From assembly GCA_958496175.1 (NCBI GenBank), contig OY292279.1, positions 16,740,001-16,804,000 on the forward strand: a stretch of 64,000 nucleotides of DNA, written 5' to 3'. This DNA is from Sisyra terminalis (Eukaryota; Arthropoda; Insecta; Neuroptera; Sisyridae). The first letter of the stretch is position 1; every line of letters begins with the position of its first letter. The notes beneath the pieces were generated by a model. It was not told the origin of the DNA and did no database searches. It worked only from the letters and a program-made list of their open reading frames with translations. Made by a program: the position numbers and the translations under genes. Shown piece after piece: positions 1,504-63,130 of this stretch.

Positions 1504-1556
1504 TGAAATTAGCTACGTTTCGTTACGTATCGTAACTTCATCAGGCTTCTATTTCA
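1504..1556 (-). ncRNA. Hammerhead ribozyme-like motif (complete architecture)
   Basis: Read on the minus strand, the order is stem I strand, CTGATGA core (1538-1544), one extra A, stem II GTTACG-ATA-CGTAAC (six perfect pairs), GAAA (1518-1521), then CGTA and the second stem I strand. Stem I pairs as AGC/GCT next to the core and TGAAAT/ATTTCA further out, separated by a small internal loop, as in natural type I hammerheads. The predicted cleavage triplet is GTA, after the A at 1514. Stem III is only the self-complementary ACGT, so activity would probably need a dimer. The extra A after the core departs from the canonical motif. It resembles the tails of the Penelope-like copies elsewhere in the window; no coding part is visible beside it. 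Confidence 0.6.
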
Positions 1557-1559
1557 TCT

Positions 1560-4500
1560 TCTATGATCTTCAAAGCAATCACAATTCAATGAGTATGGTC
1601 ACATTATGGAGGTAATTACCGATAAAAATGTTTAGCTAATGGAAATTTGGTTTTTGAAATGTCATTCCTCATTAAATTTACTTTTCTATTCTTTAAAAGC
1701 CTGAAACCACTAAAGGAAACTTTAGGGACAGAATATTAAAGGATTAATTGCCATTGTAAAAATATTATTTTCAAAGTGTAATAATAACACTTTAAATATT
1801 ATTAAATATTATTATATGCATACCTGCTATGTACATAGGTAGGGTAGTCGTACGTATTATGGAAAATGCATCTAAAGAAAATTTTAGAATCGCTTTTTCT
1901 TAAAAATACAATAAAATAAAAGCTTAGTTACTAGAACTAAGAAATTGCATTACAAACATCCTAAAGTAAACGACCATTGAACCTACAAAAGAATTAGAAT
2001 TTCAAAAAAATATTCCGTGAAATTTTTCGTTTAAATCTCCCTTTATTGATTGTTATGATATTTTTACACAACGCTGTAATTGTAAAATTCAATGTTTCTA
2101 GTAATTCAAGAATTCAAAAAAGTATTAAAAGAACTCAAAAGAGTCTCACATCAACAGGTTCAGCGAAAAAGTGCTTCAGATTATCAAGGAAGGTTTTTTT
2201 TCATGATTTTTGCTGCTAAAATCAATATTTTCAAAAATATAGTAATGTTCCCTAAAACTGAATTGAACAATGGTAATCTTGATGGTAAGTTTCAAAAGAT
2301 ATAAAGGGGGGGGGGAAGATATAATGATATTCTGCTGATATAATCAAAATATGGAATACTACGAGTCGCTAAGAAAGGTATTTTTTATGTTTCACAAACA
2401 TCATTTTAATAAAATTCAATTTGTTATTTACTTTTTCTATCCTTATAGACTGGCAAAACAACTTGTATCAAGTTCAAGTGGTTCAGCGACAGACGACTAA
2501 TTAAGTTAATTATTAATGTTATCGTCAAATGAATGAAGACATAAATATTGCATTACTTTATACTATCCACAAATAGATTTATTTTTGATGAATGATTAAA
2601 TCCAATCAAAGCTTCTCTACTCCCATTTTACAAAGTTTGATGTTGGTATATAAATATATGAAATCCAAAATATTATTAACAATAATACCCTCTTCAGTTA
2701 ATTTTGTCTGCATTAGCATATTCAACCCACACTTTTGCAACTATGAAGATTAACATTTTCTAGTGCACTCTTCGGTCATTCAATTAAATATCCGGCGAAT
2801 TCATAAACACAGGCGAAAAGCACCTGAAGAGAGAATTATAATCAATTATTATCAGATTTCATTTATAATGTTATATTCAGTTTTGCGATACAATGGCAGA
2901 AAAACAATGGCTAGATTAAACTAGGCTTAGCTATAATATAGTTTTTTAATTGTTAATTAAGCAATTTGTTCAAAAAATATGTTTTAATATTTTTTTTTTT
3001 TTGAATATTGAAACTTTTTGTTGATTTAAAAATCAAACTTTGACTAATATTTAACATGTATAGGTAGTAGTTTTTGATTGATACATCGCTGTTTTTGGTT
3101 GATTATCGGTAAAATGTAAAGAGCTTTCAATTATAAATTAATTAACTGATTATTATTTTGTATACTTCTTAGTTAACACAAAACGTATTTAATAGTTCTT
3201 CATTATATTGTTTACTATGTATGAAAATTAATATCCATTAACAATGTATAAATTTTAGCTCATACGTCAATTATTTAAACATATTGGCAAGTACAAATTG
3301 ATAATGTAATGAATCTATTCAGAAATGTGTAACAATATGTTCAAATTTGAATTAATATTGAATAATTCTATGGCCAAAATTATTTTTTAAATATAAAGGC
3401 AAAATGCTAGAGGCGTTTATACAATAACTGTTATAGTATTTCAACAAGTTAACGTACAACTTTAAATTTAATGGTACTAATAAAATATGTGAGGGAGAAT
3501 CAATTGCCTATAGTGAATCAAAAATCCAAAAGTCATTAAAGATCTCTTATTAATGGATAAAAATATTCAAGTTTTTGCTTTAATACGTTTTTATGTGATA
3601 TTTGATATGTTACTACAAATTAAAGAAGGATTCACTTGTGAGAGGAGGAAAACTTATATACTTGAAAAATTTACATTATATAGCATTTCTATAGTCAGAA
3701 GTCGACAAATTAATTTTTTAGTAATCTTTGTTTTTGACCATAATAAAAAAAAATCTTTTGGATAGTAAGATAAAATATAATAATTTTTGTCGCATATGTT
3801 CTATATAGAAGGTACCAAAAAATACTCAAAAAAGATTTTATACAAATGATTAAATCACAAACTTGTCATATATTCCAATTTTTTTACTAAAACGACAAGT
3901 TTCAAAAGAAATGAAAAATTCATTAAAGCAAAACAATATTAATATAATCAAAACAAATTGATATATTTAAATCTTGCAATCCCATTGGCTAATAGCCTTT
4001 TGTATTGGAGCAGTTGTGCTTTCATTAGATAGCCAATAGACCCTCATTGCTTTCTTCAATGAATATAATATAGTAACCTCCGAATAGTATTAGACTTTTG
4101 AAGTTTGTAAAAAATAAATACGAAATATTTTGTTTATTTAGTTTTTCGAAAGTTCCGGAAGAATTTTTTTTAATTTCGAAATTTAGATCTTTTATAAAAC
4201 AAAAACGATTTTCTTACGCTAATAATTGACGTTTCTTTGTCGTTTGAGAATATTGAATGAAAAAATCAGATTGTTTTCATATTGGAACTCAAATTAAACA
4301 ATTTTTTAACTTCCGTAAAATCAATTTTGTTGCTCCATTTTGGTGCTTTTTCTGTTGCCCAAGGGCTCTACAAAAACAGATTTATTGCTCTTTTTTTTCA
4401 AAAAATCACTATTTTTTGAAAAAGGCTTATTTTAGTCATTTGTTAAGTATTGAAAATTATTTTTTCTGTGGAAAAAAATGGTGCTAACTAGCAACAGGAA

Positions 4501-6260
4501 AGAAGTTAGGGATGACGGTTTTAGTTTTTAAGCTCTACAATAATAAGGTTCCATAAAATATGATTTTAAAGATAAAATAGGTAATCAATTCAACAATCTA
4601 ACTATTTAATATCGATTTTTTAGAATCTCTCGTTGTAGACCTGAAGAAACTCCGAAAAATAAAGAAGCAATTTGGAGCTTTTTTGGAGCAATTTGGTCCA
4701 AATAAGAGAGTTTTATCATTTTTAATAGAACCATGTTTGATTTTCAATAATCAAGCTTCAAAATAAAAATTTTCAGAAACTAACGGTAATGGATCCAAGA
4801 AAGTAAAATTTTCCTCGCAAGTTCTACAGCATAATTTTTAGTATAAAAAAATAAAATTTTAATTTATGGAATATGTTAAAATGGAACTTTATATGTTAAA
4901 ATCGAGCTTTTACTGTAAATAGAATTTTTCCGTACATTATACGAACGATAAAGTGTTTTATTCAATAACTTTTGGATGACAAAGAAACATCAAAATATAA
5001 GGTTATTATTTTTCACAAATTTTAAAAGTATAATGCTAATTTGTATGTCAATTTTTGTTTTTTCAAAATTTTCATTCTAAAAAATTACACTGATCAATGG
5101 CGCAAATATTTCTTGACTAATCCAATATTTGAAAAAAGTTCCAAATTGAGCTTTTTACGGTGTTTTCATGGAAAAAAATTGAGTGGAAATAATATTGTAG
5201 ATTTTTTTTCCTTTAAATCTTTCGAGCTTCAAAATCACCTCAATTATTGGCATATATAAAAAAACCAAACTTTTGTTATTTATAGAAAAGCTTTGATCGA
5301 CAACCAACTAAGCCATAATAAGATTTTCTGAAAAAAATGAGAACAACAATTTTTTTCTTTGATATTTCTTAAATCACAAAAAAATATTATCATAGTTTGG
5401 AGTTCATTTTAACAAATTTAAAAATTGTATCGCTAGCTTGATAAACGTAAATCATATTAAATTTTCTAATATTTTTCTTTATTTTTTTTTATTTTCACAA
5501 AAACAACTTGAGATAATGATCTGACCCTATTATAATACTACTCAGTATCTTAACAATTCATTAAAATATATTTCCTGGGTCAATTAAAGCTCTTATTGTT
5601 CAATATGGAAAACTTAGCGATTTTTATAGAAATATCGAAGAAAAAACAATAAAAAATCCACCTCTATTTTAATTTGATTTTACATTTGATTTCTCTTTTT
5701 ATATATATAAAAATCAATTCCATAAAATTATTTTGTAATTTACTCGGTAACGTCTACATCATAAATCAAACGTAATTCGATACACCCCTTGTTGCCTGTA
5801 AATTGGAAAACATTACCTTTGACTATAACCATAAACTAATATTTCTTTTGTGTGAAAACAATAGATTTATCTTTGCATTATCTATAATACAATTTCTAAG
5901 CTTTTTATGCGAATGTTCATAAATACATTAGTTAGTGGCCGTGGGAGTCAATTTTCAAAATATAATTGACATAAATGTTTTGTACCACACTGACCCTTGT
6001 AAATCAATACGATCGTTATCTATAAATTTTTCGAATAACAATGAATATTTGCTCTATTCAATGAGATTGAAAAAAAATTACAATTTATTTTTGAAGCGAT
6101 AAATTTTAAAAAATTTTTTTCTACCAAAATACTTGATCAACATCTGAGCTTTCACTAAAAAACTAATTATGACTGTGCTTCTTTATCAATCTTTAGGTAA
6201 TAAAATTAATATGCTTTTCAAATCCAAATAAGATTTTTTCGCTGACTTTGAACAGTTATA
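1560..6260. other. Unassigned A+T-rich DNA
   Basis: No gene recognised. There is a G run at 2306-2315 and long A/T runs. The short open frames at 2.1, 3.6, 4.3 and 5.0 kb show no family resemblance and look like chance. Confidence 0.55.
4225..5000. repeat. Weak inverted repeat, possible old foldback element
   Basis: The segment around 4225-4262 reappears inverted around 4958-5000, sharing TTGAYGTTTCTTTGTC and a nearby ATTGAATRAAA. The interior holds no recognisable protein. It may be a decayed TIR element; mismatches are frequent and the ends are not defined. Confidence 0.3.
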
Positions 6261-6477
6261 CTGTGTATACAATATATAAAATATATTGCAGTTCAATTTA
6301 TGTAGTATAATTTAACACAATAATATACAAAATCAATACAATAATATACAAATTTAATATAATAATATACAAATTTAATATAATAATATATAAACTCAAT
6401 ATAATAATATTTAAAAAATCATACCTCCAACATAAATTTGAACAGAAGTTCAAACAAAAATATTCGTGACGTATTAC

Positions 6478-6518
6478 CCAGATACGTATTTCGATTGCCA
6501 AGCAATCTTCATCAGTGG
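6478..6518 (-). ncRNA. Hammerhead ribozyme-like motif, left arm of palindrome
   Basis: Exact mirror of the motif at 6601-6641, read outward on the minus strand. It has the CTGATGA core, an extra A, stem II of six pairs with a TTG loop, GAAA, the self-complementary ATACGTAT segment and an ATC cleavage triplet. Confidence 0.6.
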
Positions 6519-6600
6519 TCATCGAGTAGCTTGGATCACTCCGTAACTTCTATGTGAATCATCACATAGAAGTTACGGAGTGATCCAAGCTACTCGATGA

Positions 6601-6641
6601 CCACTGATGAAGATTGCTTGGCAATCGAAATACGTATCTGG
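6601..6641 (+). ncRNA. Hammerhead ribozyme-like motif, right arm of palindrome
   Basis: The CTGATGA core is at 6604-6610, followed by an extra A. Stem II is GATTGC-TTG-GCAATC (6612-6626, six Watson-Crick pairs), then GAAA (6627-6630). Next comes a segment completing the self-complementary 8-mer ATACGTAT, ending in the ATC triplet at 6636-6638. Stem I is CCA (6601-6603) with TGG (6639-6641), plus two further pairs after a mismatch. All invariant core bases are present. The extra base before stem II and the loopless palindromic stem III are the unusual points. A decayed relative is at 23.03-23.11 kb. Confidence 0.6.
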
Positions 6642-6718
6642 GTAATACGTCACGAATATTTTTGTTTGAACTTCTGTTCAAATTTATGTTGGAGGTATGA
6701 TTTTTTAAATATTATTAT

Positions 6719-6815
6719 ATTGAGTTTATATATTATTATATTAAATTTGTATATTATTATATTAAATTTGTATATTATTGTATTGATTTTGTATATTATT
6801 GTGTTAAATTATACT
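6719..6815 (+). repeat. Short tandem array in palindrome arm (about 21-bp unit)
   Basis: Four to five imperfect copies of an A+T-rich unit built around TATATTATTATATTAAATT. The mirror image lies at about 6304-6400 in the other arm. Confidence 0.7.
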
Positions 6816-7008
6816 ACATAAATTGAACTGCAATATATTTTATATATTGTATACACATGCTTTTCAAAGTTATGATTCTTTATTTTTTCACAGTCGAAAA
6901 CTTTTGCCAATTCGGATGAATTTTTCTCAATTGTTGTTGTTTTTCAATCGCACATTGCAATTTACTTCTTAATGATGTTTCCAGCTAAAATATTAGGCTC
7001 AAACGTAC

Positions 7009-7207
7009 TTAAGCACACCCACAGTCTGGCAACGTTACATTTTCGACTTTGTTTTTAATTTAATTCGCGAGATTTTTGTTGATTCAGTTCTAATATGGTA
7101 TAATTCTCTCTTTTATGACTAAATTTTCATTATGGATCGATTTAATCGCGAATTAAATTAAAAACAAAGTCGAAAATGCAACGTTGCCAAATTGTGGGTG
7201 TGCTAAA
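7009..7207. mobile_element. MITE with about 60-bp terminal inverted repeats
   Basis: The left arm (about 7011-7070) and right arm (about 7145-7205) are near-perfect reverse complements. Both begin AGCACACCCACA from the outside and include GGCAACGTT and CGACTTTGTTTTTAATTTAA. The spacer is about 75 bp and noncoding. The flanks read TTAA and TAAA, so a TTAA-type target (piggyBac-like) is possible but not shown. One diverged arm recurs at 21.92-21.97 kb. Confidence 0.75.
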
Positions 7208-7219
7208 TTACACTTGAGC

Positions 7220-8850
7220 TAAATATTACATAAGATTATGTATGTGTGCATATTGTGTGAAACAAAGGCCATGCATTTAGCGTCTTGCTGTGTGCTCACC
7301 GAACCATAAAAATAAATGAAGAGGGAATGGCTAAGCGCAATAAGATGAAAAATGAACTAGATATTTCCTTAAAGATATTTCATTTGGGGAAAAATTGGAA
7401 AGGAATTTAAATTATGGTTGAAAGCACTAGAAATTGAAAAATTCAGAGATTTGAACCATCCAGAGCCAGTATAAATCATTATGAAAAGGTTGACCGCAGG
7501 TGGAGGACAATCAATTGTAGTTGATGATTATTTAACATTAAACAATCAGGTTTAAACAATTAGTCATAGTGTTAAATAAATAAATAAACGATTGTTGTTA
7601 ATAAATCAATAAGCGTGTAATATGAAATAAAGCGACTAATGAAAAATGAATTAAATTTGGTACTGTTGTAGGTCCTGAAACACAAATTGAAGTTCTGAAT
7701 CAAATGTACATAAATCAAAGTCAAATATAATTACAAACAAAAGTTACAAAACGTAAAAATGTTAGAACTCTTTAATGTTTAGCTATCAAGAAAATAGTTA
7801 AAACATTAACCCATCCATTTTGTCGTGGAAAAAAGCTTCGTGTTCTATAGTTCTTTAAAGAATTTCTATAAAGAAAATTTGATAATTTCTAGCACTATTC
7901 TATCATCCCTTTATACTTCTATCATTCTCGGCTATTAAGATTGCTTAAGAAGAAAATCACAAGCAATGAGAAAAAATTGAAATTTATGCTGTAGGTAGTC
8001 AACTATTTGAGCTATGTTTTTGTAAAATTTCAAGTCGATTTGGGGCTTATTAACGGAGTAAAAAAATCATAAAGTTTTGTAATTTTGAACTGCATTACAA
8101 AATGTAAATGGATAAAGTTATGAGAGATGGCAATCAATTCTTGAGAGTTCTTTTCGTAAAAATGAAATTTTTTGGAAAAAATAGTAATGCATTCTTTGAA
8201 ATATTCCTCTTCCATCAATACTACAATCATCATTATTTGGGGGTTTCAAAGCAAAATATTTCAACGTAAAGTGAGAAAATCGTGCCAAAATTCAATCCGA
8301 GTGCCTAAAAGCTTGGCATAAATATATGTAACTCCTACTCATAAACATTAGGAAATTCCCCTTATTTTCATAATTCTGCACCGCATTTCTAAACATCCTT
8401 AAGCTTTAAGCTTTTAATTCTTACCCTACGGTGGTCATTGATTATAGCTTCCTTAAACTAATGCTAATATAATATTTTAAAGGCAATAGCCGTATACAAA
8501 AATTTTTTAAGCAATGATATTTCGGTTTAACTATATTTTTTCTAAAGTTGGAACACAAAGGAGTGAGTTCTTGTCACTTTAATTCCGCGTTACGTAGATG
8601 AAGTTCCAGGTATTAGCAATTCTAGAGGAAAAACAGAAAATAATTTTGTATCTATTTCTCGATGCTTCGTGAATAAATGTTCTTCTGGACGACCTCTTGA
8701 AATTTTCATTCATGTCTCGCAAGTTTTCTCGTAATTTAATAGCATTTCCTTTTATTTTAAATTTATCGAATATATTTAGAAAGTTGTACATTTGCTAAAA
8801 GAAACAATTTATATTTCACAATCTAATCTCGAATGTGTGACGGGCAAACT
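7220..8850. other. Unassigned A+T-rich DNA
   Basis: No gene or repeat family recognised. Short open frames at 8.0 and 8.6 kb have no supporting features. Confidence 0.55.
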
Positions 8851-11379: not shown

Positions 11380-12498
11380 CGACTTAATGAACTTCTTAAC
11401 CACCATCTTACAATAAAACTATTTCAATTTCAATCAAAAATTTTATCACCAAAAGGAAGGCTTGGCCATGGGTTTCCCTTTATCAGGACTACTAGCCAAC
11501 ATTTGCATGAATCACTTTAAAAATAAATATATTATGAACAAAACCTACAAAAATTGAATAACATTTTATGGAAGATATGTAGACGATACATTTGTATTAT
11601 TTAATGGAACTATCCGACAAACTGACAATATGGTATCCGATCTGAACAAAATTAACCCAAAAATAAAATTCACTTCAGAACACGATCTAAATGGAATAAT
11701 TAACTTATTAGACACAACGATCACCAATGATAATGGAAAGTTGTTATACAATATATACAGAAAACCATCAACAACGAATTCAACCATACATAAAACATCA
11801 TTTAACCCAAGAAACCAAAAAATGGCAGCTTACAATAGTCAAGTGTTCAGAGCAATCAAGTTCCCTCTTAGCACCAAAACTTGCGAAGAAAAGTTTAAGA
11901 TAAACATATAGCCATTACTAACGAATACAGCAGCTCAATCATAGACAAAATAATATTAAAATTTACTAAAAATTCCATTCTTCCAACTCCACCAAAAGAA
12001 AACAAAAAATATATTAAATCAAACGTCAATAATATATTAAGTTTTACAATCGTCAACTTCCTAAAGAGAAATAACTTCAAAATCGCATTTTCAACAAACA
12101 ACAACACGATGATAACTCTTAAGCCATTGGAACAACTAAATTACAACGAAAAACAAAACCGGAATATATAAAATTAAATGTGGTTTCTATGAAAAACTCT
12201 ACATTGGCCAAACTGGTAGACCTTTCGGAACAAGATATAAGGAACATACACCCAAGAAATTTACATCAACAATAACTTCAAATTTTACAAAACACCTTTA
12301 TGACGAAAATCATCAATGCTTAAATTTCGAAACAAATTTTAAGTCATTACATAAATTTGCAAGAAAGGATCACATATGAACACCCTAGAAGAGTATGAAA
12401 TATACAAAGCACACAAACTAGATCCAAATAACATTCTTAACGGCAAACTATATAAAACAAACAACCTATATGAAATTTGTTTACAATTGACAAAATAA
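11380..12498 (+). pseudogene. Penelope-like element copy 1: reverse transcriptase + GIY-YIG endonuclease
   Basis: The reverse transcriptase region reads KEGLAMGFPLSGLLANICM, the family's GLAMGSPLSPLLANIFM motif. It then has RYVDDTFVLF with the catalytic YVDD (11575-11586), a LLDTTI motif and a YRKPSTTNSTIHKTS motif, diagnostic of Penelope-like enzymes. Further on, in another frame, come GIYKIKCGFYEKLYIGQTGR (GIY-YIG nuclease core) and LEEYEIYKAHKLDPNN, then the natural stop at 12496-12498. It is broken by a stop in the fingers/palm region (11557), frameshifts after 11,910 and inside the nuclease, and loss of most of the N-terminus. Copy 2 at 59-60.4 kb is close enough to check every break. 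Confidence 0.9.
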
Positions 12499-12834
12499 TC
12501 ATTATAGTCCGGTCAATTTAGACATTCGAAGCTACATAAATTCCCACCAAGCTGAAAATCAGTAAGATTGTTTAAAATATGATTAAAAATAAAATTTCAA
12601 AGTTCCTCATCTTTCACCTGTATGGAAAATTTTTTATTCAAGGTCAAAGGTAAAAAAAATAAGTTTTTCGCAATTTTCAGCAAAACGGTTTGTTTTATTA
12701 ACAAATGTTTCAAACAAAAAATGTAGATCATAAAATTATCTAAAAAAATTCTTTTATATTTTTTTTCCTACAAGCCATCGTTTTTGAGATATAACGATTT
12801 AAAAAGTTGTAAAAGTTGGATTCGTCATAATATG

Positions 12835-13030
12835 CATGAGTACTGCAAAAAGGGGTGCAGTGCTAAATGTGGTTGCAAAAATCGGACTATTTTGTCAAGG
12901 CCGGTCGTGCTCTAATATTAAATCATTGACAGTGGAGGATCCATTTGATTCCAACGAGGCGACATGCGATACATCGCTATTAACGCAGTTTACATATACT
13001 CAGGATGAAGATGCAGAAGAACAAGAATGA
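12835..13030 (+). pseudogene. Cysteine-rich (CXC-like) protein fragment, C-terminal end
   Basis: It begins YCKKGCSAKCGCKN, then is frameshifted by a deletion of about 18 bases relative to the inverted copy next door. In the new frame it runs GLFCQGRSCSNI, an acidic tail (DEDAEEQE) and a stop at about 13,028. The Cys pattern resembles the C-terminal cysteine cluster of large uncharacterised insect proteins often carried by transposons. Function is unknown; the fragment alone cannot be expressed sensibly. Confidence 0.6.
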
Positions 13031-13040
13031 TATAAGAGTG

Positions 13041-13155
13041 ATTCAATATTAGAGCACGATCGGCCTTGACAATGTGTACATGCCAGAGAACAAAACAGTC
13101 CGACTTTTTTGCAACCACATTTAGCACTGCACCCCTTTTTGCAGTTGCAAAAAAT
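13041..13155 (-). pseudogene. Cysteine-rich (CXC-like) fragment, inverted partner
   Basis: The minus strand encodes the cluster uninterrupted, with spacing C-x1-C-x3-C-x3-C-x1-C-x6-C-x3-C-x2-C-x4-C, including CKKGCSAKCGC and GLFCSLAC. It is the inverted duplicate of 12835-12915, with only about 125 bp between the copies, so the transcript would fold back. It keeps the bases that the plus-strand copy lost. Confidence 0.65.
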
Positions 13156-13292
13156 TGTATTAAGGAGTTTTTCCAGCGCAAGTGGAAGTATGGACTGGTT
13201 CTAATGAATTGTTAACCAACTTCCAACCCCAGTCTGTAGGGTCTAGCTGATAACCAAGCCACACTTGGACTTGGTAATATACCCGAAAAAGA

Positions 13293-13339
13293 TGTTACCT
13301 GATGATGACAGTCAAAAACTGTTGAAACGCGTCGTAATA
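13293..13339 (+). ncRNA. Hammerhead ribozyme-like motif in Penelope copy 1 tail
   Basis: The CTGATGA core is at 13299-13305, followed by an extra T. Stem II is GACAG/CTGTT (five pairs, one wobble). GAAA is at 13324-13327, then CGCGTC with the cleavage C at 13333. Stem I is TGTTAC (13293-13298) with GTAATA (13334-13339). ACGCGT is self-complementary, as expected for a dimeric stem III. The tail continues AAGAAGAAATTGAGT, shared with the other copies. Confidence 0.65.
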
Positions 13340-13389
13340 AAGAAGAAATTGAGTTATAGGAAATATATTATTATTCATTAATTTATAAA

Positions 13390-15280
13390 GACTACATTTT
13401 TAAATAGTTAAAGAATTTAAAGGTGTTGAACTTCTTACTAATTTTCTGGACCTATAATGAAAATAGGGGCGGCAAATTTCCGGTCGGTCCCGAGCAAAAA
13501 CTCACATTACGCCATTGTTCTAGATGAAACTAGAGTGTACCATAATGTTGGAACCATAAGATGTAATTTTACATTGCACATACTCAATAGTTATTTAATA
13601 TCAAACTACTAGTTTGAAAAATTTTCAAGTAGTATTAGTATGGATTTTGATGTCAGGATAAAAAATAAAATAAAAGCATTCTGTGAGTTTCATTATGGGA
13701 GAAAAAAAGTGATTTTTTTAGTAAAAAATATAATGTGAAATTTTTCCTTTAACCTTCTTAAATTAAAGTGATATATGATGTGGTCGTAATATGATAACCA
13801 ATTAACTTAGCCATTACTTATTCATGCATTTCACGAACGTTTTCTACACAAGCACTGTGAAGACGATGGCCATAATTCCTGAGAGGCATCTAATTTAAAT
13901 CTTTTCAAGATAGGAATTTTCACACGCGTGTATAAAAGATGACGAGTACTTACACTATTTTAATATCATGTTTTCCATTTTTCATTATGATTCAAAAAGC
14001 TGCTTTAAAATGTATTGCTTTTCGTTCTCATTTTTACGAGCGAAGGAAATTAAACAGCCTAGGTAGCTGGAATTTATTTTTGTTTTGTTATTAAAATATT
14101 TTCTCATATTTTCCAAAAAAAAATATCTTTTTACTTGTAAGCTTGAGGGTTTTGTGATGTACATTGAACTTGCATTGATGAGTCCACATTTTCCTGTTGA
14201 CATTTTCGCAGCAATCATTTGGTGTTATAGTGGAATCAAACGCTAAATCGGGTTGACTATACACAACACATATAAAAAAGCTCGCAGAACATAATCACGT
14301 ATTCATTTTGTATTCACAAAAATTTTCTGTTTGGTATCTCTTTTCGGTGCTCGTAAAACCCAATCACATTTGTCGCTTGTTTTGCATTCCGTTTTAGCCC
14401 AGAGAACGAAATCCAATTTTGTTTTGTTTTATTGAAATCGAGTTACAAACTATAAATTTGCTACAAAGAATAATATATCTGATCAAAATTCTTTGAAAGA
14501 CTTGCTCGAAAAAACTTCGAATTTGGCGCGTTTGTTTTCAAGTAAGTTTCCAGTAAGTGGTACACGAACTAGGAATATATTTAGAGTTAGTCGAATTCAA
14601 TTTTAATTGAATAGTACAGGTATTCCGTCAGCTTATTGCATTGAATTTAAATAGACTTAAAAAATCGGTAACCTCAAATTAAATTTAAAATCAGATCATT
14701 AGAAAATAAGCTTTTCGTAATTGGTGCAGTTTTAAAGTCATTACCCAGTAATTGACTAACTCAATCAATTGAAGGTCCGGAAGTAACTGTCGTGTTACAT
14801 TGCCGTCAACCCCACACTTAACACCCTCGTCTCGTGCCTCAAACATCATCAAATACGATATAGAACTCATTCAATGTGGGACTTTACACGTAATAATATA
14901 AGTAAAGGTGTAAAATGGCACTTGCAAGTTCAAAGAGTAAAATTTATATGTCCGCTTTCGGACAAATTGGAGCTCATCGTGCTAACAACCCCAGGGGCAC
15001 CACGTCTTCTCCGTATATATACATGTACATGTGCTCATATCTATGGAGCATCGTTTGTCACGTCTAACGCTAAAACGGCAGATGCTCCTCGTCTTTATAA
15101 ATATATTCTACAAAACCTTTGCTTTTCTTCATTACGCATTTGACTATAAAAAACTCACCCTTAAAAACAAATTAACTATTTGTATATTATTAAACAATGT
15201 TTAATTTTGTTATAATCTGTCCCCGGACATTAAACAAATGGGATAAGAGAACAAGTAGGAGAAAACCGCACTATTTAAGA
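13390..15280. other. Unassigned DNA
   Basis: No gene recognised. A more G+C-rich patch at about 14,760-15,110 contains an 89-codon frame at 14874 on the plus strand with no recognisable domain; I do not call it a gene. Confidence 0.5.
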
Positions 15281-15799: not shown

Positions 15800-17265
15800 A
15801 TATTTGGTTCAATCAAAGCACAGAGATGAAAAAATTAAGAAGATTCAACGAAAAAGGAATTATTATCGATGAAGAGATGAACAAAGTATTGTAATAGGTT
15901 TTATTTTGAGAAGAAAAGTATTGATACTTGATGTTCTGGAAAGAAAACTGACAAACCTCAAGAAAAACAGAAGAAGTTAAGTTAAATCCAATAATTGATG
16001 AAATATGGATGGACTACCCCCCCTCCCAGAACCTTTTTGGAGTAGAAGATGCTAGGTGCAACAATTCAATTATTTGGAAAGTTAAACCAGGAAACAAGTC
16101 GAAAAAAAGATTCAAAGTTTCCAATCGCTACAATTTTATATTGCTTAGATAAATTAGACAACTCTTAAGAGTTTAATATGATAAATTAACGATTTTCAAA
16201 TTCCGGTCACTGTTTCCTGATCTTCTATTATCCAGATCTGTATCATGTTCTGAACTAAAGATTTGTTATGTATTAACTCTAACCAACTGGATACAATGAC
16301 TTTTAAATTGTTTCCAGATAATAACAATTGCTCTTCATTCGGTCTGCGAACTTGTAAAATTTTAAGCAATCTAGGAATAATTATTACTATAATAATTTTA
16401 GTAGATAAGTTTGGACTTAAACTGAAATCTTTCTTCGATCTAAGACGGCAGATGAAGCTGCTATAGGTACCGAAACGTCGCTAATTTGGGAAATTAAAAA
16501 ATACCAGAACGTAATAGCAGATCTTAAGCTGCCTGAGCTTTTTTAATTATTTTAACAAAGCTGAGATCTGAGATTTATCATCAAGTGCTTTTACTTTACC
16601 ATGAATGTGTCCTTTGGGTCGCAGTGGAAGTAAAAATCTTAAATATGAACCATTCCAAAATTATTTTGAACACCCCTGGTGTAGACAATATTGTTATAAA
16701 TATGTGCAATTCATTCTTCATTTTATAGGCTAGAATTTTACTTTTCTTCTTCCTTTGTCCTTGGGTTTCATTATTAGAGTACCACATCGTTTGCGATTTT
16801 CAAGACATTGATGTATCATTAAATCAATACAAAGTATACGTTAATGTATTCCGTTAGTAGGAAAAACGAACCGATACGAAGTTTAAAAGTGAGATCTAAA
16901 TAACAGTAATTATTCCTGTTATCTATTGGCTTTAGTTCCCCGGTTTTGGCGGAAAAAACTAGTTTTGGACGGACCGTAGTATATGTATTTTTCCAGAACT
17001 TTATTTTATAATCATTCATCTGGTGGATTTTAAATAAAATTAAAGATTCATATAAATTATTTTTGGTTGACTCATTTTCCGTTTTGTTTTTTTGCTCTTG
17101 ATGTTTCCTCGATTTTCTAGTAGTATTTTTATTACTACTAGGTATCTACTTATTTGACGTTATTTGAAATAATAAATTTTAAATGCGTTAATTTAAAATT
17201 ACGTATTTTTCTCAACAAAAGTTTGTGTTGTAAAAATTAGAGTCAAATTCCCGTTTTTAATAATT
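15800..17265. other. Unassigned A+T-rich DNA
   Basis: No gene recognised apart from the hammerhead-like motif at 16.45 kb. Short frames at 16.3, 16.6 and 16.8 kb look like chance. Confidence 0.5.
16445..16487 (+). ncRNA. Degenerate hammerhead-like motif
   Basis: CAGATGA replaces CTGATGA (one core change). It is followed by A, a GCTGC/GTACC stem II with one mismatch, GAAA (16472-16475) and CGTCGCTAATTT. The sequence after GAAA resembles the tail at 1.5 kb (CGTAGCTAATTT), so the two are probably from one family. The core change should abolish cleavage. Confidence 0.4.
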
Positions 17266-17267
17266 AT

Positions 17268-17327
17268 TAACGAGTTCAAGTTACCTGAGGAAGTCACGAT
17301 ACGTGAAGAAACGTTACAGAATTGAAA
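17268..17327 (+). ncRNA. Hammerhead ribozyme-like motif
   Basis: The core is CTGAGGA (17285-17291; the seventh-position base is variable in hammerheads). Then come an extra A and a stem II of GTCACG-ATA-CGTGAA, five pairs with only the closing pair lost. GAAA is at 17308-17311, then CGTTAC. An outer stem I helix TTCAA/TTGAA is possible; the inner stem is weak. Compared with 1.5 kb, stem II differs by T to C on one side and A to G on the other, which preserves pairing. Confidence 0.5.
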
Positions 17328-22870: not shown

Positions 22871-23025
22871 TCGTAGTTTCGGCGTGACGACAGCCGAAAC
22901 CATGCAGTGCAAAAATTGGTATTAAAAACTCGTCTCGTGCAATGGAAAACTGTGCAATGAAAACTCGTGCAGTTGGAGAGATAACTATAATTTATGAAAA
23001 TTCAAGCAAATGTATTACTGAAATA

Positions 23026-23110
23026 TATTGCTCAGATATGTATTTCGATTGTCAAGTAATTCTCCTCAGTGGTTATCAAGTAGTGTTGGATCGCTCTGTA
23101 ACTTTTCACC
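23026..23110 (-). mobile_element. Decayed relative of the 6.3-6.9 kb palindrome arm
   Basis: The minus strand reads CACTGAGGAGAATTAC, TTG, ACAATCGAAATACATATCTG, aligning base for base with the hammerhead region of the palindrome. Upstream, the match continues through the sequence equivalent to GTAACTT...GATCCAAC. Three of the six stem II pairs are lost and the core is CTGAGGA, so any ribozyme is probably dead. There is only one arm. Confidence 0.6.
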
Positions 23111-30660: not shown

Positions 30661-30720
30661 ATTTTGTTACAACTATTGATTTTAAATCATTGTTATATTC
30701 AACCTCAATAGTATCACTGT

Positions 30721-33253: not shown

Positions 33254-34300
33254 TGGACCATGTTAGTCCGAGATCCTTTTTTGGCAACATTGGAGGTCGC
33301 AGAAAAGCTTAATTCAGCTGAGCAAACCATTTCAAAACAAATTCAGAAAATAGGATTGGTGAGGAAATATTTAAGATGAGTGCCGTATGAAGAAATTAAA
33401 AGGTCCAAGTGATTCGTTTTGAACCGAATGATAACTGGAGATGAAAAGTGGATGACTTATGATAGCGTTATAAGGAAAAGAGCAAATTGTGAACTCAGAA
33501 AGCCAGACCTTTTCACCTATAAACCAAATTTGATAATAAATAAAGAAATGTGGGTTATATGATGGGACTTTCGAGGACCTATTCACTTTGAGCTTTTAAA
33601 ACCAAATCAAAAGCTCAATTTGGAGAATTATTGTAATATCAGGTAACGACTGGTTAACTTAAAGACAGCAGTCCAAAAAAAGGACGGCAATGTTTGATAG
33701 GAAAGAAATTATAGAGCATCATGAGAAAAGTGGATTATTTTTGATAGCATTATAAGGAAAACAGCGTATTGTGAACCCAGAAAACCAGGCTCTTTCACAT
33801 CTAAACCAAATTTAACTCTAAATAAATGAATTTTGTGTTTATGGTGGGACATTCAAGGACCAATACGATATAAGCTTTTCAAACCAAACAAAAAGCTCGA
33901 TTCGGAGAAATTTGGCTAACAAATGGTTAACTTAAAGACAGCAGTTAAAAAAAAGGACGGCAATGTTCAATAAGAAGGACATCATAAGGCATCATGATAT
34001 TACCAGACCACATGCTGCTTTGGGGACTCGTCAAAAAATTGCAGAGCTACGCTGAGAAATTGTATCGTTTCCACCATATTTTCCAAAAATAGTAATCTCT
34101 AACTACCACTTCTTTTTGTCTTTACTAAATTTTTTGGCGGGCAAAAAACTCAAAAATGAAGAAGACATCAGTTTAGCAATGGTTGAATTTTTCAAATCAA
34201 ATGATAAATTTTTTTTCAAAAATGGGATAAATTATTTGCCTTCACGCTGATAAGAAATCATTAATGACGATTAAATTATCGAATAAAGTTATTTTTTTGA
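33254..34300 (+). pseudogene. mariner transposase with internal tandem duplication
   Basis: The order is a helix-turn-helix stretch (LATLEVAEKLNSAEQTISKQ), TGDEKWMTYDS with the first catalytic Asp, and WDFRGPIHFELLKPNQKLN. Then a second copy of the same block starts at 33725 (EKWIIFDS...WWDIQGPIRYKLFKPN). It continues into RHHDITRPHAALGTRQKIAE with the second Asp and a C-terminus containing KKLKNEEDISLAMVEFF. The block 33444-33724 (about 281 bp) is repeated at about 80% identity, joined where HHD meets DEKW. The third catalytic Asp (SPDLAPSDYH in the family) is replaced (FPKIVISNYH). Many stops and frameshifts; inactive. Confidence 0.85.
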
Positions 34301-34315
34301 GGATTTCTCATTTTT

Positions 34316-34640
34316 AAATAATTTACACATTGTTATTTTTGCGCAACGTTTCGCAATTTATAACTGCTTTTTCAAGCGATTATAAATAATAGTAAAATGT
34401 ATAAACAATAAGTTTTTAACAAAATGTCAATTATGTAGATATAATAATTAATTACTAATAATTTAAATTTACCAAAGTACCATACCGATTTATTACTACA
34501 TCAACATAAATGACATTCTTCATCAAAAACCTTATTCTTTATACATGTTACTGTTATTTATCATCACTTGAAAAAGTAGTAATAAACTGCGAAACGTTGC
34601 GCAAAAATAACAAAATGAAAATGATTTAAAAATAAAAGAT
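34316..34640. mobile_element. Divergent pair of Penelope-type tails with hammerhead-like motifs
   Basis: The left arm (about 34316-34390, minus) and right arm (about 34540-34640, plus) both read CTTGAAAAAG, a short hairpin, GCGAAACGTTGCGCAAAAAT. The left hairpin is GCAG/TTGC. The core CTTGAAA departs from CTGANGA, so cleavage is doubtful, but the layout (core, stem II, GAAA, self-complementary ACGT) is the same as in the clearer copies. The 150 bp between the arms is noncoding. Confidence 0.55.
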
Positions 34641-34644
34641 CCTG

Positions 34645-41087: not shown

Positions 41088-41280
41088 TTTTGTTCACAAA
41101 CTTGATCCTATCAATATTTTTAGCAACTAATCCTTTACAATAAACACCATCTATGAAATTTGTTTACAATTGACAAAATTAAATAATACCTGACGATGAC
41201 AGCTAAAAGTTATTGAAATGCTTTGCAAAAAAAGAGTGTAATACGATGTGAATAATAATTTATTATTTGTAAAACAGCAT
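41088..41280 (+). pseudogene. Penelope-like 3' fragment with decayed hammerhead
   Basis: It begins HKLDPINIF and continues IYEICLQLTK, the last residues of the GIY-YIG protein of copies 1 and 2. The tail follows as CTGACGA (41195), TGACAG, a worn stem and GAAATGC. The stem II partner strand has changed, so pairing is poor. Confidence 0.75.
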
Positions 41281-46240: not shown

Positions 46241-46246
46241 GAAACA

Positions 46247-55330: not shown

Positions 55331-55331
55331 C

Positions 55332-55503: not shown

Positions 55504-55554
<51 letters not shown>
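55503..55554. repeat. (TA)n microsatellite
   Basis: About 26 uninterrupted TA units. Confidence 0.97.
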
Positions 55555-56335: not shown

Positions 56336-56689
56336 GATTAAAATATGATAAAAAATACTTTATTAGTATTGGTTACCGTCGCCTTCGTCGATGTGGCCCA
56401 TTATTAAGTCAACCATTGTTTTTCTAAAACGAAGAAAACCCGATTCATTTCTGACAGATAAGATTCAATGACGGTATGGCCTATAAAAACCATTTCCTTA
56501 CTTTCAAAGAAAAATCGTCCTTTTAATTCATCTAAATTTAGTATATTTTAGGGACCACAATATTGGAAAAATCAAGCTACAGAAATACTGCAAAGTTGAC
56601 AAGACAAAAAAACTTTTTTAAAAAAAAGTAAATAATGAAAAGTCAATAAATAAATAATTAGGTATGTCCTGTGGTTTAATTTTTTTCTT

Positions 56690-56737
56690 GATTATAACAC
56701 GTTTCAATAGTTTTTGGCTGTCATCATCAGGTAATGA
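56690..56737 (-). ncRNA. Hammerhead-like motif, minus member of pair
   Basis: CTGATGA (complement of 56724-56730) and GAAA (complement of 56702-56705) are intact. Stem II is GACAG/CTATT with one mismatch, and the sequence after GAAA has drifted (CGTGTTATAA). Probably inactive. Confidence 0.5.
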
Positions 56738-56776
56738 TTATTTTGATAATAAATATTGTTAATAACAAAAAATAAT

Positions 56777-56823
56777 CATTACCTGATCATGACAGCCAGA
56801 AACTGTTGAAACGCGTCGTAATA
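56777..56823 (+). ncRNA. Hammerhead-like motif, plus member of pair
   Basis: Stem I ATTAC/GTAAT, stem II GACAG/CTGTT, GAAA (56808-56811) and CGCGTC are all present. The core reads CTGATCA (56783-56789): the G that acts in catalysis is C, so this copy should not cleave. Confidence 0.55.
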
Positions 56824-56848
56824 AAGAAGAAATTGAGTCATAGAACAT

Positions 56849-57817
56849 TAGGGTGTCTGTGATTTCCCAAATTGATTTTTTTACAGCGATCGCCCCCTAA
56901 ATTTTTAGCTTAAGATAGAAAAAAAAATATCCAATACAATTAAGCTCTTACTTTCTTGATTAAACCGTGTCGGAGTCATGTTACTTTTACCATTTAAATA
57001 ACATGGGATTATTTGACATTTTATTATTAATTTTTTTCTTAGAAACAAATGGATGACAAGATTTAAGATCAAATTATTCTGACGTAAAATTTAACGCTCT
57101 ACAAAAAAGGTCTGTTATGATTTTCGATTTAATCACTCCATTAAAAGTTATTCAACATTTAACTTGTACCTAATATAAATATTGCAATATTTTCAACTTT
57201 TTGCTCATTTATATTTTTTTTAATTATAAAATCATTGGAAGAGAAGAAAAAAATTACTATCATTAGAGCGCAAGTGATTATTTGTGTTAATTTTATGGCT
57301 TGAATTGAAAATTAAACAAAAAAATCATTTTTGGACAATTAAAACAGGTGACATAAGATCCGAATTCGCTATAGTCGTGAAATTCAATTTATCCAGGATA
57401 AATTTTCGCACTTTAATCAATATTTTGTTCCTACGAAGTGAATTTCATACTAATTAATGAGATTATCGACAAAAGTACAGTTATTATTCAAATTTTTACC
57501 ATTTCAAGTTAAAAAGTTTAATGTCGAATAACTTTTAATGGAATGATTTAATCGAAAATTTATAAGAAACCTTTTTTGTAGAGCGTTAAAGTTTACGTCA
57601 GAATAATTTAACCTTAAATCTTGTCATCCATTTGTTTCTGAAAAAAAATCAAAATAAAAAGTCAAATAATCTCATGTTATTTAAATGGTAAAAGTAACAT
57701 GATTCCGGCACGGTTTAATCAAGAAATTAAGAGCTTAATTGTATTGCATAATTTTTTTTAAAAATTACGGGGGCGATCGCTGTAATAAAATCAATTTGGG
57801 AAATAACGGACACCCTA
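56849..57817. mobile_element. 969-bp DNA element, about 315-bp TIRs, exact 8-bp target duplication
   Basis: It starts TAGGGTGTCTGTGATTTCCC and ends in the inverted counterpart ...CGGACACCCTA. TAGAACAT flanks both sides (56841-56848 and 57818-57825). Arms run 56849-57166 and 57505-57817, with a noncoding centre. It sits in the Penelope tail, whose sequence resumes across the gap. The 8-bp duplication and TARGG-type end fit hAT, although such long TIRs are unusual there; P or MULE-type origins are alternatives. Relatives are at 43.9 and 59.2 kb. Confidence 0.9.
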
Positions 57818-57829
57818 TAGAACATACAT

Positions 57830-58995: not shown

Positions 58996-59074
58996 TGTAA
59001 CCAATAAATTATTGAATAATCATATATCTCCTATGACTCAATTTCTCTTTTATTATGACGTGTTTCAACAATAT

Positions 59075-60375
59075 TTGAACAATTCATACAGAAAACCAAC
59101 AACAATGAACACAACCACCCATAAAACATCATTTTACCCTAGAAACCAAAAAATGGCAGCTTACAAGAGTCTAGTTTATAGAGCGATCAAGTTCCCTCTT
59201 AGCACCAAAGCTCGTGAAGAAGAACTTAAGATAATTTAATATATAGCCTAGGGTGATTTTTTTTTGACTTTTTTTTTTTGGTCTCATTGTGAAATTTTGT
59301 TGGAAATACCAAAAAAAAAAATTCTCTGAAAGTTTGAGCCCTTAATATTAATTTTAAGTCCTCGACGAAGACGTGTAAAGATTTCCCATTGAAAATACAT
59401 AGAAACTCTGTTTTTTTATTTTTAAATTTCTATATCTCAGCGGCATTTCATGGGATCGCTTTTACCGAAGATGGTTTTTTCTCAGAATTAAACGCTCTAC
59501 AAAAGTGCCCATTGCGACAAAGTCGTAACTCACACCGGTGAGGTAGTACGGGCCACTGAACCTGATTTTTCCATAAAATTCGCGTTTTTTTTGCATTTAT
59601 CTCGTAAATAACAAGAGCTACGGAAAAATTATAAATAAAAAAACTTGTAGAGAATTTGTTTTCCTACAAAAAGGTCCTGTAGACCAAATCACTAAGATCA
59701 ATATTAAACGAGATATTATGCCTTGAATTGATTTTTCTGTGAAATTTTTGCCGAACATTGATTTAAACTTTTAGTCAAAAGTCATCTAGCCACTACTAAC
59801 GGATACAATAGCTCAATCTTAGACAAAATAATATCGAAATTTACTAAAAAATCCATTCATCCAACTCCACCAAAAGAAAACAAAAAGTATATAAAATCAA
59901 ACTTCAATAATATATTTAATTTTACAATCGCTAACTTCCTAAAGAAAAATAATTTCAACATTGCATTTTCAACAAACAACAGCATGATGAAAATTCTTTA
60001 GCCATTTGAGAACAACCAAATCTCAACGAAAAATAAAACCGGAATATATAAAATTAAATATGGTTACTGTGAAAAATTTTATATTGGCCAAACTGTTAGA
60101 TCTTTCGGAACACGATATAAGAAACATACACCAAAGAAACCTACTTCAAAAACAACTTTAAATTTTACAAAACACCTTTATGACGAAAATCATCAATGCT
60201 TAAATTTCGAAACAAATTTTAAGCCACTGCATATTTGCAAGAAAGGATCACATATGAACACTCTAGAAGAATATGAAATATACAAATCACACAAACTAGA
60301 TCCAAATAACATCCTTAACGACAAACTATATAAAACAAATAACCTATATGAAATTTGTTTACAACTGACAAAATA
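59075..60375 (+). pseudogene. Penelope copy 2 protein: RT end + GIY-YIG endonuclease
   Basis: It starts NSYRKPTTMNTTTHKTSF, the end of the RT region. After the insertion it continues in one frame (SSILDKIISKFTKK...FSTNNSMMKIL). A single TAG at about 60,000 interrupts it. Then 124 open codons encode KTGIYKIKYGYCEKFYIGQT (GIY and YIG motifs), a conserved Arg in RSFGTRYKKH, Glu in MNTLEEYEIYK, and LYEICLQLTK before TAA (60373-60375). The nuclease domain looks structurally complete. The GIY-YIG enzyme makes the nick used for target-primed reverse transcription. Confidence 0.85.
59249..59783. mobile_element. 535-bp insertion related to the TAGGGTG elements
   Basis: It begins TAGGGTGATTTTT and carries TTTGAGCCCTTAATATTA, ATATCTCAGCG and AACGCTCTACAAAA, blocks shared with the elements at 43.9 and 56.8 kb. 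Flanking octamers ATATAGCC (59241-59248) and ATCTAGCC (59784-59791) differ at one base, and copy 1 shows the uninterrupted site. The right end lacks the expected CACCCTA, so that terminus may be deleted. Confidence 0.75.
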
Positions 60376-60377
60376 AT

Positions 60378-60424
60378 CATAACCTGATGATGATAGCCAA
60401 AAACTGTTGAAACGCGTCGTAATT
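60378..60424 (+). ncRNA. Hammerhead ribozyme-like motif in Penelope copy 2 tail
   Basis: The CTGATGA core is at 60384-60390, followed by an extra T. Stem II is GATAG/CTGTT, pairing through wobbles. GAAA is at 60409-60412, then CGCGTC with cleavage after 60418. Stem I is ATAAC with GTAAT, one mismatch. All core bases are intact. Confidence 0.6.
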
Positions 60425-60821
60425 AACAAGAAATTGAGTCATAGGACATATATTATTATTCCTTGATTTATTAATTTTGAGTGGGAAAGAAATAAAATAT
60501 TTATCAATGTTAAATTTAACCAATAACTCATAAACTTTATAAAACGCAAATACTTATCAATTGTTACTTAAGAGAACTATTTCAATTTCAACTTCCGGTA
60601 ACTGATCAATAAATCAAACTCAAGCATTGCGTTTGCCGTAATAAACCATCGTCCGTTTTATAGGAATTAATACCACCTTTGTTATTGTTAAGGGGGCAGT
60701 GAGTTCCAAAAAAAAAGTACAATTTTTTCACATTTTCCAATTAAAATTTCTCTTAATTACGTTGTATTAAAATACAGTAACATAATAAAAAATTATAAAA
60801 TTTAAATTAAAAAAAGCTGTA

Positions 60822-61240
60822 TTGGTGGCCGAGTACTTTTCCCGAGTACTAAAAATGATCTATAGATCATGGGTCGGCAACCTGCGGCCCGCGAGACATC
60901 TTGGTGCGGCCCGCAAGATGCTCGCCGCAACACACATGACGGACACATAGAGTTTTATTATTGAAACTAAAATATTTGTACATAAAGATTGTAGGTATAC
61001 CTACTGTAAGTGCGGCCCGCACTGATTCCCATGAAAAATATTTGGCCCTTTTACAACAAAAGGTTGCCGACCCATGCTCTTGATGACCGCTCTAAAATCG
61101 GTGGTCTTGGGTTCAATCCTCAAATCGAGCAAATTTTTGATATTTATCGATTTCAGATTTTTACTAACGCTAAAGTCACTGAAGATCTTAGTAGTTATAA
61201 AGTGACAGAAAATATCAATTAAAAAAAAAAAATAAAAAAT
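60822..61240 (+). mobile_element. tRNA-derived SINE interrupted by a hAT MITE
   Basis: The A-box region (GGTGGCCGAGTAC, 60824-60836) is separated from the B box (GGGTTCAATCC, 61109-61119) by the insertion at 60868-61076. The body (CTTAGTAGTTATAAAGTGAC) and A-rich tail match the SINE at 10.0 kb. Confidence 0.8.
60868..61076. mobile_element. hAT MITE, 209 bp
   Basis: The ends CATGGGTCGGCAACCT and AGGTTGCCGACCCATG are perfect 16-bp inverted repeats. The flanking octamers CTATAGAT and CTCTTGAT agree at six positions. The interior is rich in GCGGCCCGC, as in common insect hAT elements. Confidence 0.85.
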
Positions 61241-62405: not shown

Positions 62406-62409
62406 CATT

Positions 62410-62930
62410 GTTTTTTGTATGCATATTTTTACTATGCCTATATCTTAGATCTTTAAGGCTATGCCAGTGAGTTCGAATAGATGACTGATGGATTATTTTT
62501 GGGCTTTTTTCGATGGTTTCAAAATTGAAAATTGAGGTTTCATCTTTTAGTCAAAAGGAAATTTTTCGGTTGTTTCTTACGATGACACATTTCGATGGAC
62601 CGTTTAATACCAATTCATCAGTGTAGAATCCTTGGTATTTTTGATGTCTATTTTGGATTTCCATGTTAGTTTTACAAACTGAAAATGAGTTCATTATTAA
62701 ATTTTGGTTTTCCTTTAGTTTCCAAACACATTTGTGTCACTGTTGCTAAATTATTTTTTATCATTACAAAAAAAAACCATTAAGTCTTTATCTTAAGCTC
62801 TTATTGCTTAAGTGAAAATTGAGTATCAATTTTTCCTTTGCCAATTGTTTCAATTTTTTTTTCATTTTTCTTATCTATGGTTAATATAATATTACAATAA
62901 ATTAATATCTTTTATTGGATTTTAAATACT
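62410..62930. other. Unassigned A+T-rich DNA
   Basis: No gene or repeat recognised. Confidence 0.5.
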
Positions 62931-62934
62931 TCAT

Positions 62935-63130
62935 CAGGTTTTAGAACATACAGTAACAGGTTAATTATATAAATATACATAATTAATCAGTTAAAATTAA
63001 ATTAACAGATTAAAATACACTGATTAATTGTATATATTTATATAATTAACCTGTTACTGTATGTTGTAGTACCTGATGAAGGTACGAAAATAGCGAAACG
63101 TTGTGCAAAGATTAAATAAAAACATCAAAT
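62935..63130. mobile_element. Divergent tail pair, fourth family
   Basis: TTCATCAGGTTTTAGAACAT...ACAGTAACAGGTTAATTATA (62935-62975) is matched in inverted order by ...TATAATTAACCTGTTACTGT and TACCTGATGAA (63033-63080), making a foldback of about 60-bp arms. The right member continues through GAAA; the left has lost about 50 bases after CTGATGAAG. Confidence 0.7.
63055..63110 (+). ncRNA. Degenerate hammerhead-like motif
   Basis: CTGATGA (63073-63079) is followed by A, a worn stem GGTA/TAGC, GAAA (63095-63098) and CGTTGTGC. One stem II pair is lost and stem I is not convincing. Confidence 0.4.

Follow-up and report, generated by a model that had tools for sequence, protein, structure and literature searches.

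Hammerhead motifs and head-to-head terminal repeats in Penelope-like elements of Sisyra terminalis

A 64,000-nucleotide (nt) stretch of the genome of the neuropteran insect Sisyra terminalis (contig C6, 16740001-16804000; hereafter the window) carries a dispersed set of hammerhead ribozyme-like motifs, which raises the question of whether these are true hammerheads, what elements carry them and how the copies were inserted. The genome searched comprised 376.6 Mb in 11 contigs; the window, with a GC content of 26-36% in 4-kb steps, holds remnants of Penelope elements and of retrotransposons without long terminal repeats (non-LTR). We propose, with a probability of roughly 0.8, that the motifs are hammerheads in the pseudo-long terminal repeats (pLTRs) of several Penelope-like families, and that these families would insert by priming on both target strands, from one long and one short start site of reverse transcription.

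Hammerhead motifs in the window

The loose pattern CTGANGA-N8-38-GAAA occurs 22 times in the window against 4.37 expected from 100 shuffles, the largest of which gave 10. A strict descriptor comprising the core, stem II, stem III, an NUH site and stem I, which was composed after the motifs had been seen, returned six sites (6604+, 6515-, 13299+, 1544-, 56783+ and 60384+). The mean over 200 dinucleotide shuffles at a threshold of 8 was 0.07 and none of these shuffles reached six. The features of a type I hammerhead (CUGANGA...GAAA, stem II and an NUH site flanked by stem I) are present at six sites. Genome-wide, CTGATGA...GAAA matched 19,315 times versus 4,838 for a reversed control pattern.

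The motifs were grouped into families A to F and a pair at 63 kb. Since MAFFT alignments across all families misplaced the GAAA, a script was used for the stem II comparison, and our covariance model was limited to families A and E. With one well-formed copy from each of six families, whose stem II sequences differ between families, 30 of 30 pairs were formed; exchanging strands in 265 deranged pairings left 15.0 pairs on average and never more than 19. Either real family D arm yielded the same 30/30, with maxima of 19 and 18 after exchange. Stem II is less paired in worn copies than in well-formed ones. When the former are included, the own-strand mean is 3.87/5 versus 2.55 for exchanged strands, the first value being lowered by a core set one base off at 34.4 kb and by a core-less row at 59.07 kb.

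The covariance model was trained on ten motifs of families A and E, all from outside the window. It found 11 window sites at E<0.05, every one inside the elements described below: E was 8e-18 to 0.003 at 13.3, 60.4, 56.8, 56.7, 41.2, 1.5, 63.1, 6.5 and 6.6 kb and 0.03-0.04 at 62.9(-) and 59.05(-) kb. The model also detects families B and C and the 63 kb pair, none of which were in its training set. At 34.4 and 34.6 kb the scores were E=0.39 and E=1.3, and the 16.4, 17.3 and 23.0 kb sites were not listed at E<=10; these five sites are supported by homology or weak scores. The motif set of the initial annotation is confirmed in part by our model at E<0.05: seven of its eight intact motifs were recovered, but not that at 17.3 kb, and among the six that it called worn, those at 41.2 and 63.1 kb held up and the other four did not. 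The minimum-energy fold shows a hammerhead for the 1.5 and 13.3 kb motifs. On these sequence statistics the hammerhead-like motifs of the window are real and not chance matches. We regard them as predicted hammerhead ribozymes, which in the motifs at 1.5, 6.6 and 13.3 kb would cleave after GTA, ATC or GTC.

Elements that carry the motifs

Family B occurs in the window at 6.5, 6.6 and 23.0 kb, and its 35-nt motif has 992 exact copies in the genome. At locus L093, an uninterrupted open reading frame (ORF) of 839 amino acids lies between two family B motifs spaced exactly 2,800 nt apart. This ORF has an RVT_1 domain (1.8e-8) and GIY-YIG similarity by tblastn, but fell short of E 0.01 with the GIY-YIG model of Pfam. 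The motif-bearing copies at this locus are identical at 151/151 bases over the stretch compared, which points to pLTRs from tandem units, and the motif lies just 3' of the ORF stop codon, close to the pLTR start. The family B features of the window are as follows.

6223..6857 (unstranded), head-to-head pLTR pair, a single insertion with arms 6262-6557 and 6562-6857
6211..6222 (+) and 6857-6868, target-site duplication ATGCTTTTCAAA of this pair (4 of 4000 and 1 of 3000 random pairs as long)
6223..6261 (-), 39-nt long tail of the left arm only, matching L093 to position 349
6475..6521 (-), hammerhead (descriptor score 14.9; our model E=0.003)
6598..6644 (+), hammerhead (descriptor score 14.9; our model E=0.003)
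22998..23104 (-), worn single arm with a decayed hammerhead (77.6% identity to 6446-6549; no match to our model)

The 6.5 kb pair forms a perfect palindrome: its 296-nt arms are 100% complementary, a 4-nt spacer separates them, and the centre lies within the last codons of the L093 ORF. Its left arm is 99.7% identical to L093:13-349 and its right arm 98.4% identical to L093:4-325, an alignment that overruns the arm by a few bases. The left-arm tail ends 8 nt upstream of the first ATG of the ORF, which was taken as its start, and the right arm ends at a shorter site. Since the window arms match the pLTR of this reverse transcriptase (RT)/GIY-YIG element, family B is on sequence grounds a Penelope-like element, and those of its insertions that lack coding consist of the pLTR only or are truncated at the 5' end.

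Family C is represented in the window at 1.5 kb, with motifs at 16.4 and 17.3 kb that are similar by eye and probably belong to it. Its 33-nt motif has 1,143 exact genome copies. We sampled 100 listed sites, all on contig C1, and read the stretches around 77; 30 loci minus 5 second arms plus 40 gave 65 loci, or 64 insertions as L007 and L008 are one.

1404..1568 (approximate, by eye) (-), pLTR copy with a long tail, apparently one-armed
1501-1550 (-), hammerhead (descriptor score 12.5; our model E=1.9e-5)
16443..16485 (+), worn family-C-like hammerhead with a CAGATGA core (stem II 4/5 pairs; no match to our model)
17279..17321 (+), worn family-C-like hammerhead (stem II 4/5 pairs; no match to our model)

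Compared with family C, stem II of the 17.3 kb motif has a T-A to C-G double change and has lost its first pair. Three of the 65 family C loci (L014, L055 and L058) hold GIY-YIG remnants of a second Penelope family within their own stretch, and the family C coding seen is degenerate GIY-YIG only. Because these remnants are of its own family, family C too is assigned to the Penelope-like elements, and the copies without coding are pLTR-only or 5'-truncated insertions.

Family A occurs at 13.3, 41.2, 56.7, 56.8 and 60.4 kb, with a truncated arm at 59.05 kb. GIY-YIG coding was detected by tblastn at 12.15-12.49 and 59.95-60.37 kb, with 150 scored matches among 2,846 candidates genome-wide, and at L087, L091 and L092 the GIY-YIG match stops 11-24 nt upstream of the motif. 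Family A is likewise a Penelope-like element, as judged by its coding remnants.

11399..13426 (+), Penelope copy with RT and GIY-YIG remnants (tblastn to GIY-YIG proteins) and other DNA at ~12503-13294
13293-13339 (+), hammerhead (our model E=8e-18)
11388-11398 and 13427-13437, 11-nt flanking repeat TGAACTTCTTA of the 13.3 kb copy (3 of 3000 random pairs)
41095..41230 (+), 3' end of a Penelope copy, with a hammerhead at 41184-41230 (our model E=1.8e-5)
56639..56848 (unstranded), head-to-head pLTR pair, right arm broken off at 56849
56690-56736 (-) and 56777-56823 (+), hammerheads of this pair (our model E=1.2e-11 and 1.1e-14)
56849..57826 (unstranded), unrelated terminal-inverted-repeat element inside the 56.8 kb right arm (inverted-repeat arms 56919-57124 and 57556-57759)
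59002..60516 (+), Penelope insertion, coding to 60376 and long tail to ~60509
59003-59077 (-), truncated inverted arm of this insertion, short end (our model E 0.03-0.04 at 59.05 kb)
60378-60424 (+), hammerhead of this insertion (our model E=7.5e-17)
58998-59007 and 60517-60526, 10-nt flanking repeat TAACCAATAA of this insertion (6 of 3000 random pairs)

A search of the flanks of the 56.7 kb pair found no target-site duplication. The element that interrupts its right arm is ~980 bp long, with terminal inverted repeats of ~200 bp and an 8-nt duplication TAGAACAT; from the duplication length we take it to be hAT-like.

Family D and the 63 kb pair were studied within the window. For family E, which has 195 exact motif copies in the genome, seven loci were read, and for family F one.

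34300..34643 (unstranded), family D palindrome, the hammerheads of both arms decayed (self-complementarity of 79.5% across 344 nt)
62929..63110 (unstranded), palindromic pair (83.7% self-complementary)
63067-63108 (+) and, partial, 62920-62943 (-), hammerheads of the 63 kb pair (our model E=0.0005 and 0.027)

Both arms of the 34 kb palindrome (34295-34648) read TTGAAAA where CTGANGA is expected. The core changes are common to both arms, as though the motif had already been dead when it was copied in. Searches of the flanks found no target-site duplication at the 34 kb pair and no clear one at the 63 kb pair. One family A stretch had no match among phage sequences and one exact family B motif had none in IMG/VR; a protein search for relatives elsewhere returned seven fragments.

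These assignments bear out the initial view that hammerhead-type motifs lie within several Penelope-like families. Its placement of the motifs at 13.3, 41.2, 56.7, 56.8 and 60.4 kb directly in the 3' tail of a GIY-YIG Penelope element stands in part: the 56.7/56.8 kb motifs form an end-repeat pair without an adjoining GIY-YIG match, and in the 13.3 kb copy the motif follows the end of the ORF only after about 0.8 kb of intervening DNA. The suggestion that the 6.5 and 1.5 kb families may be new, small non-autonomous elements is not supported, given arms 98-99.7% identical to the pLTR of a coding element in the first and the degenerate own-family GIY-YIG coding in the second.

Architecture of the insertions

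Head-to-head inverted pairs hold the motifs at 6.5, 34, 56.7, 59-60.4 and 63 kb, an arrangement absent from the initial annotation, and most of the copies read across the genome are likewise head-to-head, many of them within a single target-site duplication. We examined neighbours in about 100 listed sites per family for C, B and E. Among the matches listed, all neighbours closer than 2.5 kb were divergent (16/16 for C by script, 19/19 for B and 10/10 for E by eye) and none of the 45 close pairs was head-to-tail. The 64 family C insertions comprise 45 with two typed arms (41 by script, and L007/8, L013, L038 and L058 by eye), 6 with an incomplete partner (L009, L016, L032, L050, L051 and L054) and 13 that are one-armed within the fetched flank.

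Family C has two kinds of outer end, a short one (q144-174) and a long one (q183-198), with the stop sites ~30-40 nt apart. A long end was paired with a short one in 38 of the 41 script-typed pairs, where half would be expected if the ends were independent (binomial p 5e-9), and in 42/45 when the four pairs read by eye are included. The exceptions are L017 and L029 (both ends long) and L061 (both short). In L017 the inverted match continues beyond the tail into the flank, and this locus is possibly a true inverted duplication. The same pairing was seen by eye in family B (9/9, from hit tables: the window pair, L009, L016, L074, L080, L081, L083, L084 and L085), in family E (6/6, L073-L078, with L079 one-armed) and in family A (3/3, L087, L090 and the window insertion at 59-60.5 kb, with L088 incomplete), which brings the typed insertions with one long and one short end to 60/63. 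The limits of the end classes were fixed after family C had been seen, and families B, E and A are therefore cleaner but small tests.

A shared flank of at least 9 nt was present in 33 of 57 two-armed insertions versus 1.3% of 3,190 mismatched flank pairs, and because of this difference we treat pairs with shared flanks as having entered in a single event. The longest target-site duplication is 14 nt. Inverted pLTRs, an optional tail and target-site duplications, the marks of a Penelope-like element, were all found in families A, B and C. Similarity between the two arms of a pair exceeds that between reshuffled partners, as none of 1,000 reshuffles reached the observed mean of 0.933, which suggests a shared template. 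In 7/38 long-short pairs, one arm retains the outer tail while an inner part found in the other arm is missing from it, a pattern that speaks for independent priming of the arms.

Proposed mechanism and its alternatives

The head-to-head copies suggest, from their sequences, insertion starting from both cut target strands, with ends that are usually unequal. We propose that two start sites of reverse transcription lie at the pLTR end far from the motif, in family B just before the first ATG of the ORF. Reverse transcription would begin at these sites and cover little more than the pLTR, and most copies read would be short because synthesis starts there and extends little past it. The endonuclease would cut both target strands a few bases apart, and each target 3' end would prime one complementary DNA (cDNA), one at the distal (long) and one at the proximal (short) site, so that both target strands presumably prime. 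The two cDNAs would be joined head-to-head, and repair would then yield the target-site duplication. Because the long and the short site are used once each per insertion, we infer that one RNA serves both cDNAs.

As the family C loci were selected by one exact motif, only partner arms are informative about cutting of the template. Of the 41 family C pairs, 33 have the motif covered by both arms (10 are exact in both, and in 23 of the 31 others the partner begins 5' of the core). Because synthesis of most partner cDNAs continued through the motif, the ribozyme had apparently not cut most template RNAs. Two partner arms, those of L053 and L064, start no more than 3 nt from the predicted cut, too few to interpret; the right arm of L053 starts exactly at the predicted cut site. 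Because the start sites are downstream of the cut, cleavage would strip them from the RNA 3' end, and cut RNA may serve as messenger and uncut RNA as template. A stricter version of the model, which we put forward as a possibility falling somewhat short of an even chance, is that an RT dimer uses one RNA twice at adjacent starts, one per target strand, giving exactly one long and one short end, while the ribozyme would divide the tandem transcripts between messenger, which is cut, and template, which is not.

Several observations weigh against two-strand priming by Penelope-like elements with hammerheads. The Rfam hammerhead models gave no match at permissive thresholds in the stretches searched, and the covariance-model check suggested in the initial annotation is thus mixed in outcome, clearly supportive with a model of same-genome relatives and silent with the Rfam families. 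The minimum-energy fold does not show a hammerhead for the 6.6 and 60.4 kb motifs, and neither the seven family E loci nor the one F locus had coding next to the motif. Among the 64 family C insertions, the 13 one-armed and 6 incomplete ones lack a full pair, and at most one end was visible in 7 of the 16 family B insertions. In 24/57 insertions the flanks do not share 9 nt, and the duplications of family B are weak (9 nt or more in 2/8 and below 8 nt in 6/8). The partner was the closest relative in only 8/38 arms, asymmetric arms could stem from later deletions, and 11 of 34 scored centres are at least 85% self-complementary, which self-priming also explains. For a lizard element, the start site was reported not to differ between the two strands (PMC11167929).

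Self-priming, in which one cDNA or an antisense template folds back and copies an inverted arm, we consider rather unlikely here. On an antisense template it is the route favoured for rotifer Penelope elements (PMC3846280), and the 85-99% self-complementarity of the 11 centres, the perfect palindrome at 6.5 kb with its 4-nt spacer and the long-long locus L017, where the arms still match beyond the tail in flanking DNA, would all be accommodated by it. However, a copied arm should end anywhere, whereas short arms stop close to a single site and have long arms as partners, and the tail of a long arm is not copyable from a short one. Moreover, in L003, L018, L031 and L064 the short arm is not a copy of the long one because it reaches further inward, a pattern that later deletion could mimic.

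It is improbable, in our estimate, that the non-coding families are instead independent, retrozyme-like non-autonomous elements, mobilised in trans and replicated through circular RNA. Most copies do lack coding, with own GIY-YIG remnants at only 3/65 family C loci and none beside the motif at the E and F loci read, and exact motif copies are numerous in C, B and E. Yet families B and C have coding relatives, no close pair among those listed is head-to-tail, and the family B arms of the window stop near the ORF end. Identity with metazoan retrozymes was considered and rejected: head-to-tail repeats of 170-400 nt were not seen, with 45/45 close neighbours divergent among the matches listed. The reading of the motifs as chance matches or as palindromic hairpins without ribozyme meaning, to which the microRNA-hairpin and other unrelated models that make up the Rfam matches here would lend some colour, is rejected as very improbable on the shuffle counts, the genome-wide pattern excess and the stem II pairing retained in six families.

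Other features of the window

A non-LTR retrotransposon RT fragment (RVT_1 E=1.5e-27) lies at 29743-30666 (-), with a further RT-like piece, recognised by eye, at 30932-31396. At 46214-49079 (+) there are ORFs in which GG[VI]/NG motifs recur, and which apparently represent a gene family duplicated locally; the two compared with Pfam had no match. Extra palindromes without an evident hammerhead were seen at 6989-7227, 50181-50414 and 55311-55519, the last of which overlaps a MIR2630 called by Rfam. A GC-richer stretch at 60870-61075 has inverted ends GGGTCGGCAACCTGCGGCCCGCG and presumably resembles a known short DNA transposon.

Comparison with known systems

In twin priming of LINE-1, the second target strand primes and inverted copies result, in a minority of insertions and internally. 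The pairs described here differ in that their arms start near two fixed sites. Hammerheads in Penelope, inverted pLTRs with junction palindromes and an optional tail have been published (PMC11167929; PMC3846280; PMC7229834; PMC8969392), and our elements are further members of this already described type, with its known hammerhead association. The Rfam models missed this hammerhead class in the stretches searched.

Like the present copies, metazoan retrozymes are short, AT-rich units of the genome that lack coding and carry type I hammerheads (PMC7229834). They are tandem repeats of ~170-400 nt (PMC7229834), whereas here the copies are head-to-head pLTR pairs and families B and C have coding relatives. 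A caution follows for similar cases: coding copies with the same pLTR should be sought before coding-free hammerhead units are named new elements.

In Adineta vaga, the tail is described as optional at one of the inverted pLTRs, and Penelope elements are of low copy number (PMC3846280), in contrast to the ~200 to 1,100 exact motif copies in each of three families here. Apart from this rotifer remark, a strict rule of one long and one short end was not found in the available portions of the Penelope literature searched, which is no proof that it is unpublished. How the second strand and the inverted ends form in Penelope is debated, with self-priming favoured in the 2013 rotifer paper and, in the 2024 in vitro study, cutting and extension of both strands shown, with the later steps left for validation.

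The likeness extends to the Anolis PAc system (PMC11167929), which also has an ORF with RT and GIY-YIG, tandem units and a hammerhead at the pLTR-ORF junction. According to the same source, the PAc enzyme cuts and extends both strands from two adjacent RT start sites, and the interval between such sites corresponds to the optional 30-40 nt tail. The PAc start lies 111-118 bp inside the ORF (PMC11167929), whereas the family B ends are located upstream of the first ATG, at distances of ~8 and 47-54 nt. The pairing of one long with one short end, seen here in nearly every typed insertion, was not found stated for PAc in the accessible text of that paper (PMC11167929). As a footprint left in the genome, this rule is relevant to how Penelope makes its second strand and its inverted ends, and it can be sought in any Penelope-rich genome.

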